This document shows positions 45,928-50,747 of a stretch of DNA of 64,000 bases, piece after piece (the stretch's first letter is position 1; each line of letters begins with the position of its first letter). The DNA comes from Kushneria aurantia DSM 21353. GTDB taxonomy: Bacteria > Pseudomonadota > Gammaproteobacteria > Pseudomonadales > Halomonadaceae. Under the pieces are notes generated by a model, which saw only the letters and a program-made list of their open reading frames with translations, was not told the origin of the DNA and did no database searches. The position numbers and the translations under genes are program-made. The stretch covers positions 1 through 64,000 of the forward strand of contig NZ_KB907877.1 in NCBI RefSeq assembly GCF_000382245.1, given 5' to 3'.

Positions 45928-46431
45928 CTAGCAGGACGCCTGCCCGGAGCGCTGGTGCATCGATGCCAGCAGGGTCGACTTGAGTGCCACCAGCGGCTCG
46001 CCGGAGAGGCCGCTGATCACCAGCAGCCGCGTATGGCGTCCGCCGCTGTAGCCCAGCCACAGCGGTAGTTCGACGCAGCCCGGCGTGGCGGGCAGCACCC
46101 GGCACGACCAGCGCCCGGGTCTGGCCAGCCGCTCCCACAGCCACCAGCGTTCGAAGCGTGTAAATGACGGGCAGGGGCCGCCGTCCAGCATCAGCGCCGC
46201 TTCGGCGTTGCCTGCCGGCGCGGCCGGCTCGGCGTTATCCGGCAGCAGCAGGGCGCGCGACATCGTCTCGGCGGCCAGCAGCCAGGCCAGTGGTCGACCC
46301 TCCTCGGTACCGACAGGGAGGCGCCAGAGCGACAGCCGCGCCGGCTCGAAGCGCTCCGCCCCCAGCCGCCGCAGTCGGGCGCGGGCGTCGTCGTCACTCA
46401 GTCGCCGCGCCAGTCGCAGTGTTTCAGCCAT
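45928..46431 (-). CDS. Hypothetical protein coupled to a sodium:solute symporter
   Basis: 167 residues with no recognised family. It is rich in Leu, Arg, Ala and Trp (FERWWLWERL), with no clear membrane helix or signal. Its start overlaps the stop of the upstream symporter gene by 8 bp, so it is translated with it and may be an accessory or enzyme for the same substrate. Its TAG stop is the CTAG at the border of the dispersed repeat. Confidence 0.6.
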   Translation of the reverse strand: MAETLRLARRLSDDDARARLRRLGAERFEPARLSLWRLPVGTEEGRPLAWLLAAETMSRALLLPDNAEPAAPAGNAEAALMLDGGPCPSFTRFERWWLWERLARPGRWSCRVLPATPGCVELPLWLGYSGGRHTRLLVISGLSGEPLVALKSTLLASMHQRSGQASC

Positions 46432-48049
46432 TGGCCCATACCTGCAGTAGTGCCAGGGTTGCCAGCAGCACGAAAAACCACACGATCAGGCCGAGACAGC
46501 GCCGGCGGGTCACCAGCGCGTCGCGACCGATGGCGGCGGCATCGGCGCTGCGCCCCTTGAGCAGCGCCTGCATGTCCGGCGCGGTTTCGTCGATCACCAC
46601 GTCGGCCAGCTGCTCTCGACCTGGCTTCGGGGCGCTGAGGCTGACGAGATAGCCGGCCACCAGTGATACCGCCAGGCCGACGAAGTTGTTGTAGAGCCAC
46701 GACATGCCGGTGTGCGACATCGCCCACACCGCCGCCATGCCCAGCAGCATGCCGGCCACCGCGCCGCGGCCGTTGCTGCGGTGGCTGAGTATCGCCAGCA
46801 GGAAGACTCCCAGTAGCGCACCGTAGAACCACGAGCCGATACGGTTGACCGCCTCGATAACGGGTCCCAGGTTGCCGGCGAAGAAGGCGAACAGGGTGGC
46901 GTAGACGCCCCAGAACACCGTTGCCCAGCGCGAGGCCTTGAGATAGTGGCGCTCGTCCGCTTCGGGTTTGACAAAGCGGGCGTAGAAGTCGCGCACCGAG
47001 ACCGCTGCCAGTGAGTTGAGTGCCGAGTCGAGACTCGACATGGCGGCGGCGAACACCCCGGCGATCACCAGCCCGCTGATGCCCACCGGCAGGGTGCTGA
47101 CCACGAAACGCGGGAACAGCTCATTGAGGTTGTCCGGGGCGGTCAGGCCGTGCTGCTGATAGTAGGCGGCGAGCATTACGCCAATGAACAGAAACAGCAG
47201 CATCTGCGGTACCAGCAGGTAGCCGCCGATCATCAGCGAGCGCTGCCCCTCGGCGATCGACGGGCTGGTCAGGACGCGCTGGATCTGACTCTGGTCGGTG
47301 CCGAAGTAGGCCACATGCAGCACCACGCCGCCGATCAGGCCGGCCCACAATGAGTAGGTGACGGTGGGGTCGAGGGAGAGGTTGATGGGGTTGAACATGT
47401 CGTTGGCGGCGCCGAAGGCGAAGACGTCGCTCCAGCCGCCGGGCAGACTGGCCACCAGCAGGATCATGCTCAGAATGGCGCCCAGCCAGAGCACGAACAT
47501 CTGGATGACATCGGTCCAGATCACCGCGCTTATACCGCCCATCACGGTATAGCCGACGGCAATGACCGCCATCAGAATAATCGTCAGGTTGACGCTCAGG
47601 CCGGTGACCACGGAGAGCACCAGCGCCGGTGCGTAGAGCACCACGCCGGTGGCCAGGCCGCGGGCGACAAGAAAAAGCAGTGCGGCCAGCGAGCGGGTGG
47701 CAACGCCGAAGCGGCGCTCGAGCAGTTCATAGATGCTGTAGATGCCGGCGCGGTGGAAAATAGGCACCAGCAGTGCGATCAGCACTGCCATCGCCAGTGG
47801 GACGTTGATAAACGTCACCAGTCGTTCCAGGCCGCCATCAAACCCCCAGCCCGGGGCACCAATAAAGGTGATGGCGCTGGCCTGGGTCGCCATCACCGAC
47901 AGCCCGATCGCCCAGCCGGGGATTTTGCGCCCGCCGAGAAAGTAGTCCTCGGTGTTGTCCTGATCCTTGCCGAAACGCGCCCCCACCCAGGCAATGACCA
48001 CTACGTAAACGACCAGCACCAGCATATCCAGCCAGGTAAATGCCGCCAT
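46424..48049 (-). CDS. Sodium:solute symporter (SSS family)
   Basis: 541 residues from ATG 48049 (preceded by GGTGG), with about thirteen predicted helices. The start FTWLDMLVLVVYVVVIAWVG, then FLGGRKIPGWAIGLSVMATQ, GYTVMGGISAVIWTDVIQMF and the helix-8 region ISGLVIAGVFAAAMSSLDSALNSLA are characteristic SSS segments. The substrate is unknown, and sugar, sialate or carboxylate-type solutes are all possible. The longer frame (to 48100) adds an unlikely leader. The upstream gap holds the 75-bp repeat array. Confidence 0.88.
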   Translation of the reverse strand: MAAFTWLDMLVLVVYVVVIAWVGARFGKDQDNTEDYFLGGRKIPGWAIGLSVMATQASAITFIGAPGWGFDGGLERLVTFINVPLAMAVLIALLVPIFHRAGIYSIYELLERRFGVATRSLAALLFLVARGLATGVVLYAPALVLSVVTGLSVNLTIILMAVIAVGYTVMGGISAVIWTDVIQMFVLWLGAILSMILLVASLPGGWSDVFAFGAANDMFNPINLSLDPTVTYSLWAGLIGGVVLHVAYFGTDQSQIQRVLTSPSIAEGQRSLMIGGYLLVPQMLLFLFIGVMLAAYYQQHGLTAPDNLNELFPRFVVSTLPVGISGLVIAGVFAAAMSSLDSALNSLAAVSVRDFYARFVKPEADERHYLKASRWATVFWGVYATLFAFFAGNLGPVIEAVNRIGSWFYGALLGVFLLAILSHRSNGRGAVAGMLLGMAAVWAMSHTGMSWLYNNFVGLAVSLVAGYLVSLSAPKPGREQLADVVIDETAPDMQALLKGRSADAAAIGRDALVTRRRCLGLIVWFFVLLATLALLQVWANG

Positions 48050-48165
48050 TAAAGCCACCCGTTGTTGATATTTTGCTGAACATGACAGGTTGGCGAGCAA
48101 ATCGGAAGCCGTTTACCTCAGTATTTGGTCGTGTCCGGCTCGACTCGGCCGCTGTATCGGCAGGG

Positions 48166-48558
48166 ATGGCAGGGCCCAAAAAATCACCGGGAGTGATTTT
48201 TGACGCCACGCAGTGGCGGCCCGAAGGGTGCCCGCCAGGAATGGCAGGGCCCAAAAAATCACCGGGAGTGATTTTTGACGCCACGCAGTGGCGGCCCGAA
48301 GGGTGCCCGCCAGGGATGGCAGGGCTCAAAAAATCACCGGGAGTGATTTTTGACGCCACGCAGTGGCGGCCCGAAGGGTGCCCGCCAGGGATGGCAGGGC
48401 CCAAAAAATCACCGGGAGTGATTTTTGACGCCACGGAGTGGCGGCCCGAAGGGTGCCCGCCAGGGATGGCAGGGCCCAAAAAATCGCCGGGAGCGATTTT
48501 TGACGCCACGCAGTGGCGGCCCGAAGGGTGCCCGCCAGGGATGGCAGGGCACAAAAAA
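48166..48558. repeat. 75-bp tandem repeat array, five copies plus a partial sixth
   Basis: Full units begin with ATGGCAGGG at 48166, 48241, 48316, 48391 and 48466; a partial sixth starts at 48541. Copies differ at only a few positions. Each unit contains AAAAATCAC-CGGGA-GTGATTTTT, a terminator-like hairpin with A- and T-tracts, then GCCAC-GCA-GTGGC and a GC-rich imperfect hairpin. In copy 5 both arms change (ATCGC / GCGAT), keeping the pair. The array separates dps from the symporter gene. Confidence 0.9.
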
Positions 48559-48577
48559 GGCAGCGCATAACGCTGCC
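48553..48577 (-). terminator. Intrinsic terminator of dps
   Basis: On the minus strand GGCAGCG-TTATG-CGCTGCC is followed by TTTTTT. The hairpin spans 48559-48577, 49 bp past the dps stop. It overlaps the partial sixth copy of the array. Confidence 0.85.
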
Positions 48578-48625
48578 GTTGTCGTTCCCGGCAGTCAGCC
48601 GGTCGGACGCAGTGGGCGCCCGAAA

Positions 48626-49165
48626 TTATTCACCTTCCTGCAGGTGCGCCTCAATGAACCAGAGGTTGCTGTCCAGCGTACGCGACACGCCGGTCAGCAG
48701 GTCGGAAGTGTCTTCGTCGCCCAATTCGCTGGTGTCATCGATCGACTTGCGCACCGCAGCACCGGTCGCGGCGTAGTGATCGGCCAGCGCCTTGAGATGA
48801 TCGACTACCTTGTGGATATTGGTCGGGTAGGGCTCGAGGCTGGTGTTCTGCGAGACGCTCTGGGTGGTACCCAGTGCGGTGCCGCCCAGTTGCACCAGTC
48901 TTTCGGCAACTTCATCGACGTGGCCGTCAATGCCGGCGCGGAAGCCGTCCAGCATCTCGTGAACGCCAATAAACTGCAGACCCTTCAGGTTCCAGTGCAC
49001 CTGCTTGATTACCAATGACAGATCGATCAGCTCGGCAAGACGAGCGTTCATCAGCGCGACGATCTGTTCGCGCTGTTTTTCGGGAATATCGTTGCGCGTG
49101 GGGTAGAGACGGGTCGCCGCCTTCCTGTTGGCATCCTTGATATCGCGCGGTTTGGCACTACTCAT
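48626..49165 (-). CDS. dps: Dps / DNA-protecting ferritin-like protein
   Basis: 179 residues. The ferroxidase residues lie in VIKQVHWNLKGLQFIGVHEM and GHVDEVAERLVQLG at the inter-subunit site. The four-helix bundle follows the family pattern, and the N-terminal tail carries lysine/arginine (KPRDIKDANRKAATR), which may bind DNA. It forms a dodecamer that oxidises and stores iron and protects DNA in starvation or peroxide stress. Confidence 0.93.
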   Translation of the reverse strand: MSSAKPRDIKDANRKAATRLYPTRNDIPEKQREQIVALMNARLAELIDLSLVIKQVHWNLKGLQFIGVHEMLDGFRAGIDGHVDEVAERLVQLGGTALGTTQSVSQNTSLEPYPTNIHKVVDHLKALADHYAATGAAVRKSIDDTSELGDEDTSDLLTGVSRTLDSNLWFIEAHLQEGE

Positions 49166-49229
49166 GAGTCAAATCCCTCTGTCCGAGTGAAACGTCACGT
49201 CGATACGACTTCGACGTTTATCCTTTCCT

Positions 49230-49246
49230 TGTACAATATTGGTACA
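49230..49246. promoter_or_regulatory. Palindrome in the dps promoter region
   Basis: TGTACAATATTGGTACA is a palindrome TGTAC-N7-GTACA about 65-80 bp upstream of the dps start. It is AT-rich in the middle and sits where a transcription factor or promoter would be. I cannot assign it to a known regulator. Confidence 0.45.
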
Positions 49247-49406
49247 TGATGCGCCGATATCAAGTCCTGTCGAGCGAAATGTGAGCTTATCGTGCGTTGA
49301 TCACCGAGAGGGTGCCAACTCCTCCTCAAAAAGGGGCAAGGAATAGCGGTCAACAAGTGTTTAGACTGGTTTCGGTACCGTCGTTCATGCCGATAGGATG
49401 GTTATC

Positions 49407-49952
49407 ATGCGCTATCTGCCTGCCACACTGCTGCTGTTACTGGTTACTGCACCCGCTTTCGCCGCTCCCGGCGGCGCCCTGGGCGATGGCGTCTGGCTGC
49501 TGTCGCTGGGTCTTGTGCTGATCGCGGTGGAGGCGATCACGCCGATCTTTGGCGTAGTGGGGCTGGCGGGGCTGGTGCTGTTCGTGCTCGGCGCAGTGCT
49601 GATGGCCAATGCCGGGCTGTTGCCCGGCGGCGATTCGTTTGGCGCGCTGGCGCTGGTGATTGTGGGGGCGCTGGTGATCGGTACCTTCCTGCTGTGGATT
49701 GTCACCCGGGCGCTGAAGTTTCGACACATGACACCGCTCGGCGGCCGTGAAGCGTTGATCGGTGCCACGGGAGAGGTGCCGGATGACTTCACTCAGCAGC
49801 ACCTCAATCACTACCTCGGTTATGTGCGCGTGCATGGTGAGCGCTGGCAGGCGGCGAGCGACTGCCCGCTGAGTGCCGGCGACAGCGTGCGCGTTACCAC
49901 CGTTGATGGACTACGGCTGCGTGTCGAACGTGGTCCTTGCGCCGGCGAGTGA
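49407..49952 (+). CDS. NfeD-like membrane protein
   Basis: 181 residues. An apparent signal/first helix (MRYLPATLLLLLVTAPAFAA) and three to four helices (VWLLSLGLVLIAVEAI; GLAGLVLFVLGAVL; ALALVIVGALVIGTFLLWIV) are followed by the soluble OB-fold C-terminal domain (GGREALIGATGEV to VTTVDGLRLRVERG). It usually partners with SPFH-family proteins in membrane microdomains, and such a gene lies 39 bp downstream. ATG 49407 with TAGGA is preferred over ATG 49398. Confidence 0.88.
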   Translation: MRYLPATLLLLLVTAPAFAAPGGALGDGVWLLSLGLVLIAVEAITPIFGVVGLAGLVLFVLGAVLMANAGLLPGGDSFGALALVIVGALVIGTFLLWIVTRALKFRHMTPLGGREALIGATGEVPDDFTQQHLNHYLGYVRVHGERWQAASDCPLSAGDSVRVTTVDGLRLRVERGPCAGE

Positions 49953-49991
49953 CCAAACTCATATGACTCACCACTGCTTCAGGAGCCTTTT

Positions 49992-50747
49992 ATGCTCACC
50001 TATCTGATCCCCGTGGTACTGATTATCGCCCTGCTGGCCGCTTCGGTTCGGGTGCTCCCCGAGTATCGGCGCGGTGTAGTGTTCTTTCTCGGTCGCTTCC
50101 AGGGCGTCAAGGGGCCCGGGCTTTTCATTATCGTACCGGTGATCCAGAAAATGGAGACGGTCGATCTGCGCACTATCACCCTCGATGTACCGGGCCAGGA
50201 CGTGATCTCCCGCGATAACGTGACGGTGAGGGTCAACGCGGTGGTCTATTTCCGCGTGGTCGATCCCGAGAAGGCGATTATCCAGATCGAGAATTTCGGC
50301 ATGGCGACCAGTCAGATCGCCCAGACCACACTGCGCTCGGTGCTCGGCAAGCATGATCTTGACGAGATGCTCGCCGAACGTGACCGGCTCAATGACGATA
50401 TTCAGAAAATTCTTGATGAACAGACCGAGCCCTGGGGCATCAAGGTCTCCAACGTCGAGATCAAGCAGGTCGATATCAGCGAGGACATGGTGCGTGCAAT
50501 CGCCCGCCAGGCAGAGGCCGAGCGTGAACGTCGTGCCAAGGTGATCGGCGCCGAGGGGGAACTGCAGGCGTCGCAGAAACTGGTTGAAGCAGCGCAGATC
50601 ATGGACCAGAGCCCGGCGGCGCTGCAGCTGCGCTATCTGCAGACGATGAGCGACATGAGCACCCGTAACGCTTCCACCATTTTCTTCCCGCTACCGCTGG
50701 AGCTGACCAAATTCTTCGATCAGATGGGTGGCAAGGGGTCTGAATAG
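49992..50747 (+). CDS. Slipin / stomatin-like SPFH protein
   Basis: 251 residues. One N-terminal membrane hairpin ([20 protein letters not shown]) precedes an SPFH domain ([40 protein letters not shown]) and a C-terminal coiled helix ([20 protein letters not shown]). Slipins scaffold membrane microdomains and protein quality control, usually with NfeD, here directly upstream. Confidence 0.92.

Follow-up and report, generated by a model that had tools for sequence, protein, structure and literature searches.

A family of multi-hairpin repeat units adjoining intrinsic terminators, and its head-to-tail array between dps and a symporter gene in Kushneria aurantia

SPRITE and BOX of Streptococcus pneumoniae are dispersed small repeats for which the authors favour a parasitic nature, and SPRITE looks like a rho-independent terminator and occurs preferentially near gene 3' ends, according to the available text of PMC3049150. 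Group IIC introns sit behind rho-independent terminators, as stated in the accessible part of PMC12350094. CGTC REPs are said, in the excerpted text of PMC3733652, to lack a dedicated transposase and to be arranged mostly head-to-head, with a tail CCA and stems of 8-9 bp. Here we describe a repeat unit that forms an array in a window of 64,000 nucleotides from Kushneria aurantia DSM 21353 (contig NZ_KB907877.1, positions 1 to 64,000). Like SPRITE, it is a dispersed small repeat with terminator-like form near gene ends. However, SPRITE consists of one 18-bp duplex with a U-rich tract, belongs to another phylum and, as far as the available text of PMC3049150 goes, comes with no mention of an insertion rule behind T-tracts. 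A location behind intrinsic terminators is shared with the group IIC introns, which in contrast are large and carry a reverse transcriptase. By analogy, the unit would work like a terminator-bearing MITE, or like a SPRITE-like repeat with the target habit of a group IIC intron. Among open-licence PMC papers, a search for core strings of the unit found none, and searches on REPs, terminators, MITEs, rrn and group II introns brought up no title or abstract opening that describes the family; we found no published name for it, and dispersed small palindromic repeats as such are already known.

Tandem Repeats Finder, applied to the window, reported an array at 48161-48558 with a period of 75, 5.3 copies and 97% matches. 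An earlier note on this DNA had described five 75-bp units here, and they are real: five complete units run on the minus strand, which is the dps strand, from 48552 to 48178 and are followed by a 17-nt stub (Table 1). The location given in that note, between the terminator of a dps-like gene and a symporter gene, is also correct. The array stands directly behind the T6 of the dps terminator, the stub is its symporter-side end, and dps, its terminator, the array and the symporter gene are all co-directional. The symporter start ATG at 48049 was picked by inspection, the mechanical open reading frame beginning at 48100. In an Rfam search of window positions 46000-50500 at E 5, merely two weak matches were obtained, both far under the gathering score. 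A second, GC-rich tandem repeat was noticed at window positions 58798-59100 (period 18 or 54, GGC GGC GAC AAC type, 5.4 copies of 54), which perhaps encodes a glycine/aspartate-rich stretch.

Units of the family are ~70-79 bp long. Read in the direction of the upstream gene, each consists of G, hairpin A, hairpin B, hairpin C, TC and hairpin D. Hairpin A has a loop around ATCCCT or ATCCAT and often a bulged T, hairpin B is small (CCC-NNN-GGG), and hairpin D, AAAAATCGC-TCCC-GGCGATTTTTT, lies between an A-tract and a T-tract. In the predicted fold, hairpin D has 10 pairs, a loop of 3 and T6 behind it, with part of the T-tract inside the stem; in the window units its stems hold just 2-3 G-C pairs. 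Judged by form, hairpin D appears terminator-like on both strands; a consensus terminator scan of the window did not list it. Two window units, each folded alone, gave z values of -3.66 and -3.00 against their own shuffles, on the side of lower energy. An Rfam search at the gathering score over 16 + 2 element loci yielded tRNAs and one ribosomal leader and nothing on the unit.

A covariance model, R1, with 75 positions and 27 pairs was built from 41 aligned units. In the alignment of 113 units (105 distinct), bases are paired in 94.5% of 2758 stem cells, and both partners have changed in 21 of the 27 pairs; these figures lean in favour of the structure because the alignments were fitted to it. 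The observed pairing was reached by 0 of 500 shuffles, and structures slid along the alignment paired in 39.0-54.5%. For the set from named genomes (102 matches, 95 distinct), the values were 95.4% paired, 16/27 pairs changed on both sides and 27.5-52.2% for slid structures. Entire stems are rewritten among units, for example as GTGCCC/GGGCAC, GAAGCC/GGCTTC and GTACCC/GGGTAC. At the level of the aligned sequences, these substitutions demonstrate that the structure of the unit is under constraint. The earlier note had proposed to weigh compensated changes against stem-breaking ones, and this comparison speaks for maintained hairpins: in the 105 distinct units, 304 cells changed on both sides are still paired, and about 150 of the 2758 cells (~5.5%) are unpaired.

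The five window copies gave a more mixed picture. The hairpin D pair at unit positions 59 and 67 is G-C in the dps-side unit and A-T in the other four, and the second unit from dps has a loop difference at unit position 42. Both differences had been recognized in the earlier note and read there as a pattern expected under selection. In hairpin A, the second pair is T-A in the unit next to dps, whereas the other four have the unpaired combinations G/A or A/A. One array unit also carries a change in the hairpin A loop. With one pair compensated and another broken in four of five copies, the structural support is the family-wide comparison and not the window copies.

Table 1. Features of the dps-symporter locus in the window, and loci of type II units; R1 scores refer to the covariance model
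Feature	Position	Strand	Description and evidence
dps-like gene, upstream of array	48626..49165	-	Pfam Ferritin (PF00210) E 1.7e-27; ORF
dps intrinsic terminator hairpin	48559..48577	-	8 pairs, 6 G-C; terminator scan and sequence
T6 of dps terminator	48558-48553	-	sequence
Unit 1, adjoins dps	48478..48552	-	27/27 model pairs formed; D stem with G-C; R1 104.5 bits
Unit 2	48403..48477	-	hairpin C loop change; second A pair broken; R1 99.9 bits
Unit 3	48328..48402	-	second A pair broken; R1 100.5 bits
Unit 4	48253..48327	-	second A pair broken (A/A); R1 100.2 bits
Unit 5	48178..48252	-	hairpin A loop change; second A pair broken; R1 98.2 bits
Sixth-unit stub, 17 nt	48161..48177	-	just the beginning of hairpin A
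Sodium:solute symporter gene, downstream of array	46424..48049	-	Pfam SSF (PF00474) E 2.9e-57
Type II loci	L116, L117, L118, L138, L139, L142, L149-L153		

The array is open in frames on both strands, as had been pointed out before (176 aa on the plus strand, 238 aa on the minus strand). When both translated frames were searched against Pfam, one gave a match at E 0.096 and the other none. Because units elsewhere have periods like 71, 74 and 76 nt, which break frames, and in view of the Pfam result, the open frames are very unlikely to be genes, and a protein-coding repeat was ruled out on these grounds. A repeat protein gene, or purely local tandem duplication of a terminator sequence, would account for the 97% matches between units and for the open frames. 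Set against the frame-breaking periods, the lack of a convincing protein family match, the 33 match clusters among loci of the K. aurantia genome and the matches in other genera, such an origin has a nearly negligible probability; the dispersed matches in particular contradict duplication confined to this locus.

When one unit was used as a BLAST query against the whole genome, 74 matches were returned at E 10, of which the weakest are what chance alone would give; full-length matches outside the window were 77-96% identical. With R1, at least 66 matches at E 0.01 or better were found in the K. aurantia genome (150 of 4426 candidates scored), so the further copies that the earlier note had proposed to look for do exist. 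No R1 match was obtained in any of nine other species of the genus (E 0.001, 24 candidates scored per genome). At the family level, matches occurred in at least 58 of 201 genomes and at least 9 of 24 genera (E 0.001, 24 candidates scored per genome), and at the order level in at least 26 of 293 genomes and at least 17 of 118 genera (E 1e-6, 16 candidates scored per genome); K. aurantia itself is counted in both tallies, and the limits on candidate scoring make all per-genome and genome counts lower bounds. A search with a degenerate hairpin D pattern returned 73 stretches in named genomes, the carriers being Pseudomonas, Stutzerimonas, Alcanivorax, Alloalcanivorax, Salinicola, Halomonas, Solimonas, Bowmanella and a gammaproteobacterium. 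R1 matches numbered at least 75 in Pseudomonas dryadis, 57 in Alloalcanivorax xenomutans, 20 in Bowmanella denitrificans, 11 in Pseudomonas yangonensis and 2 in Stutzerimonas stutzeri. Six contigs of the K. aurantia assembly (L059, L065, L067, L068, L070, L071) end 0 to ~1.1 kb from a unit, and the ends of L067 and L068 have sequence in common. The assembly may thus be interrupted by arrays, whose real lengths could exceed those assembled.

The position of the units relative to host terminators was compared with random positions. Of 103 distinct type I sites, 81 start within ~3 nt of a run of at least four T, although some of the counted T-tracts are part of a broken neighbour unit and not of the host (e.g. 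L057, L238, L264). A terminator-like hairpin also precedes the T-tract at 53 of the 103 sites. T-tract alone and T-tract plus hairpin were found, respectively, at 18/29 and 13/29 distinct sites in the K. aurantia genome, at 17/19 and 15/19 type I sites of the family and at 46/55 and 25/55 sites in the named genomes. Orthologous sites were merged for these counts, a site being scored positive if at least half of its members were positive; before merging, T-tracts were present at 18/31 (own genome), 41/44 (family) and 59/72 (named genomes). Random intergenic positions had a T-tract in 2.35% and a T-tract plus hairpin in 0.49%, in a control pool taken from family loci only, with genes from a crude codon-usage caller; gene-neighbour counts that depend on this caller carry no weight here. 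The random-position control for the named genomes gave 0.87% and 0.14%. At the far unit end, on the other strand, T-tracts were found at 0/30 (own genome), 0/44 (family) and 2/72 (named genomes). Because the far end is almost without T-tracts, the association of units with T-tracts and terminators is directed. No T-tract was present at 22 of the 103 distinct type I sites, 11 of them among the 29 in the K. aurantia genome. Genes directly upstream of units encode ribosomal L20 and L25, ATP synthase epsilon, MetE-, KatG-, Ssb- and AmtB-like proteins and Dps. Several of these genes are usually well expressed.

A second form of the unit, type II, also has the order A-B-C-D, with hairpin D as TTCAAAT...ATTTGT. 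The 12 type II arrays that were read represent 2 distinct flanks and never stand behind a T-tract. The unit lies there inside a longer conserved stretch, with a left flank near gcgaatcgctgcgct and a right flank gcgcggtgc. Genome G135 had 11 R1 matches, and the three that were read are all type II.

A relative of the unit was found in Escherichia coli. A hand-typed type I consensus matched E. coli chromosomes with 81-84% identity over 53-63 nt in the same A-B-C-D order, the E. coli match reaching E 3e-5 in a BLAST search over 28 Gb. The consensus matched 3564 of 5426 E. coli genomes, and a 73-nt E. coli version was present in 3950 of the 5426, in a median of 2 places. The four annotated E. coli loci that were read all lie just distal to a 5S rRNA gene, between two terminator-looking hairpins and antisense to the rrn operon, in what we take to be the rrnB T1-T2 spacer. 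Hairpin D ends in ATTTGT at three of these four loci, and a four-T run directly before the unit is lacking at this spacer. The rrn distal spacer thus has a hairpin series A-B-C-D homologous in sequence to the unit, but differs in its low copy number, its lack of a strong T-tract and its resemblance to type II; it follows 5S rRNA, whereas the window array follows dps. In a genome of the same family as K. aurantia (G160), positions 2488-2560 of locus L109 hold a 73-nt unit which, with its right flank, is like the E. coli spacer and scores 64.6 bits with R1. The E. coli rrn terminator spacer is carried in many vectors, and the L109 sequence probably derives from a vector, a transposon or a contaminant.

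Filled and empty versions of one site were available between rplY and pth. We read 30 pth loci and scored them with R1; in one of them the Pfam families were checked, with ribosomal L25 upstream and peptidyl-tRNA hydrolase downstream. In four loci (L216, L219, L220, L223) the site is empty: the rplY terminator hairpin with T8 or T9 is followed directly by the GGAG..ATG of pth. In six (L211-L214, L217, L229) a unit of 75-77 nt, with R1 scores of E 2.1e-15 to 3.3e-8, stands exactly between the T-tract and GGAG, so that a single unit makes the difference between filled and empty species. Weak matches at the unit site (E 0.011-0.77) were obtained in five further loci (L202-L204, L209, L210) and a trace was seen by eye in L205; we read these six as unit remnants. 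The stretch was unrecognisable in three loci (L206-L208), and the remaining 11 had another layout with no unit seen. Weak matches over the rplY terminator region of L220 and L217 (E 0.16 and 0.46) were taken as chance. Filled cases beyond the 30 loci are L104, L105, L108, L110, L111, L122, L123 and L296. A T-tract occurs on both sides of the unit at filled sites, which could reflect a target duplication or be part of the unit, and the empty state could in part result from precise loss. Placement behind a host T-tract is established both statistically and at one locus with filled and empty forms. At filled loci, the GGAG of pth follows hairpin D without a gap, and the position of the hairpin might affect expression of peptidyl-tRNA hydrolase. 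Between rplT and pheS, a match at E 1e-6 or better was found in one of 30 loci, that of K. aurantia itself (E 1.5e-9), and in none of the nine loci from species of the same genus; a unit is present there in three species of genus g20 (L112-L114).

These sites also bear on whether the unit is an RNA element selected by the host, that is, a useful RNA (a 3'-end cap, an RNase-resistant end or a processing site) spread by recombination and not selfish. The strong covariation would fit such a function, as would the persistence of the unit at rplY-pth in two genera and its position behind the upstream genes listed above, several of which are usually well expressed. However, the same sites lack the unit in close relatives, the unit is mutated or present only as a trace at rplY-pth in several species, and all nine species of the same genus were without a match. 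We regard host selection as the main cause of the family as unlikely.

At the dps locus itself, seven relatives of the same genus (L164-L170) have a dps terminator with T4 to T7 and no unit. None of the seven has a symporter gene downstream of dps within the stretch compared; six have a symporter 36-40% identical to that of the window on the other side of dps. A Pfam scan of one relative locus showed a convergent pfkB-family kinase gene downstream of dps. Gene order downstream of dps (window positions 48050-49165) thus differs from that of the seven relatives, and the array marks a synteny break. As an empty site the dps locus was set aside, the downstream sequence differing in the seven relatives and leaving the terminator side alone comparable. 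The earlier note had suggested that the array insulates the symporter from dps read-through. Selection of the array for that role would suit the co-directional order of dps, terminator, array and symporter and the terminator-like form predicted for hairpin D. Yet the family is dispersed behind unrelated genes here and in other genomes, decays at rplY-pth in several species and is missing behind dps in relatives where no downstream symporter was seen in the stretch compared, so that an insulator made for the symporter is quite improbable. Extra termination of dps transcripts by the array is plausible, and insulation of the symporter is possible, though as a secondary reading.

Units in arrays stand head to tail. 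Because each unit ends in a hairpin and a T-tract, a unit behind a unit looks like a unit behind a host terminator. In the K. aurantia genome, unit identity was 0.944 within arrays (41 pairs) compared with 0.803 between arrays (625 pairs), with some between-array identities overlapping the within-array range. From the higher identity within arrays we infer growth by local duplication, which fits the numbers best; repeated insertion is possible as well.

No mobiliser of the units was found in a search for Y1_Tnp or at the group II reverse transcriptase loci, where no link to units was observed. The K. aurantia genome contains three loci of group II intron reverse transcriptases (L160, L161, L162) with Rfam intron matches. 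None of the 66 R1 matches listed lies on contigs C46 and C25, which hold two of these loci, and on this basis no direct link between units and group II introns was seen. A group II intron core was likewise without an Rfam match in the window stretch (E 5) and in the 16 + 2 element loci (gathering score). Robart et al. (2007) are reportedly the source for the position of group IIC introns behind terminators.

Membership in the REP/REPIN families, moved by a RAYT (Y1) transposase, was considered in view of the short palindromic form, the intergenic position near gene ends and the CGTC string before hairpin D, CGTC REPs being those said to have no dedicated transposase (PMC3733652, available text). 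Some REPs also occur in tandem arrays, but each REP has one tagged hairpin, and dimers are mostly in opposite orientation, according to the accessible parts of PMC3733652 and PMC3116915; the unit has four hairpins and arrays running head to tail. The unit consensus contains no GTAG tag. RAYT (Y1_Tnp) searches of the K. aurantia genome gave 0 matches, with the control positive in 5 of 14 named genomes. Y1_Tnp was somewhat commoner in carriers (7 of 12 tested, 5 without) than in others (3 of 12), a weak excess and no requirement, as K. aurantia and four more of the 12 carriers lack it. The missing tag and the missing own-genome RAYT led us to reject GTAG REP/REPIN membership. CGTC REPs resemble the unit further in that its D stem begins with A-T pairs. 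However, the C and G of its CGTC pair in hairpin C, whereas the REP tag is unpaired; hairpin D has 10 pairs and a loop of 3, compared with a REP stem of 8-9 bp and a loop of 4-5 in the source text available; and the base that follows is mostly G, in contrast to the tail CCA. These differences, together with the head-to-tail order, exclude CGTC REP membership, and we give very little credence to a RAYT-driven origin.

The explanation we favour, and consider fairly probable, is that the array belongs to a family of non-autonomous elements that insert behind intrinsic terminators, restore their own target and form head-to-tail arrays. A new unit would take its place directly after a host intrinsic terminator, next to the T-tract and in the orientation of the transcript that comes from upstream; its own terminal hairpin and T-tract would re-create the type of target, permitting head-to-tail succession, with local duplication probably accounting for most of the later array growth. 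In the window, unit 1 adjoins the dps terminator, and physically it would act mainly by adding termination in both directions between dps and the symporter gene. We infer insertion as an event, the working of hairpin D as a two-way terminator and a near-neutral or selfish upkeep. Maintenance of the structure could be due to recognition of the hairpins by a mobiliser, to a role of the RNA, or to a combination of the two. More tentatively, and with clear doubt, the units may represent a class of mobile terminators in many gamma-proteobacteria, in which a mobiliser recognises the hairpin with T-tract of an intrinsic terminator and places one unit precisely after it, each insertion renewing the target; the E. 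coli rrn spacer would be a domesticated fossil of the class. Such a mobiliser could be a reverse transcriptase, from the host or of group II type, or some enzyme that works on single-stranded hairpins.

A terminator-adjoining family with its own terminator-like hairpin would explain the origin of head-to-tail hairpin arrays and offers a testable target rule, for which rplY-pth provides natural filled, empty and decayed versions of one site. If this is true, a mobile part would be remodelling the 3' ends of genes in Pseudomonas, Alcanivorax, Salinicola and Halomonas, some genomes would confront gene callers and terminator predictors with dozens of element copies, and part of the rrn terminator region of E. 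coli would gain an origin.
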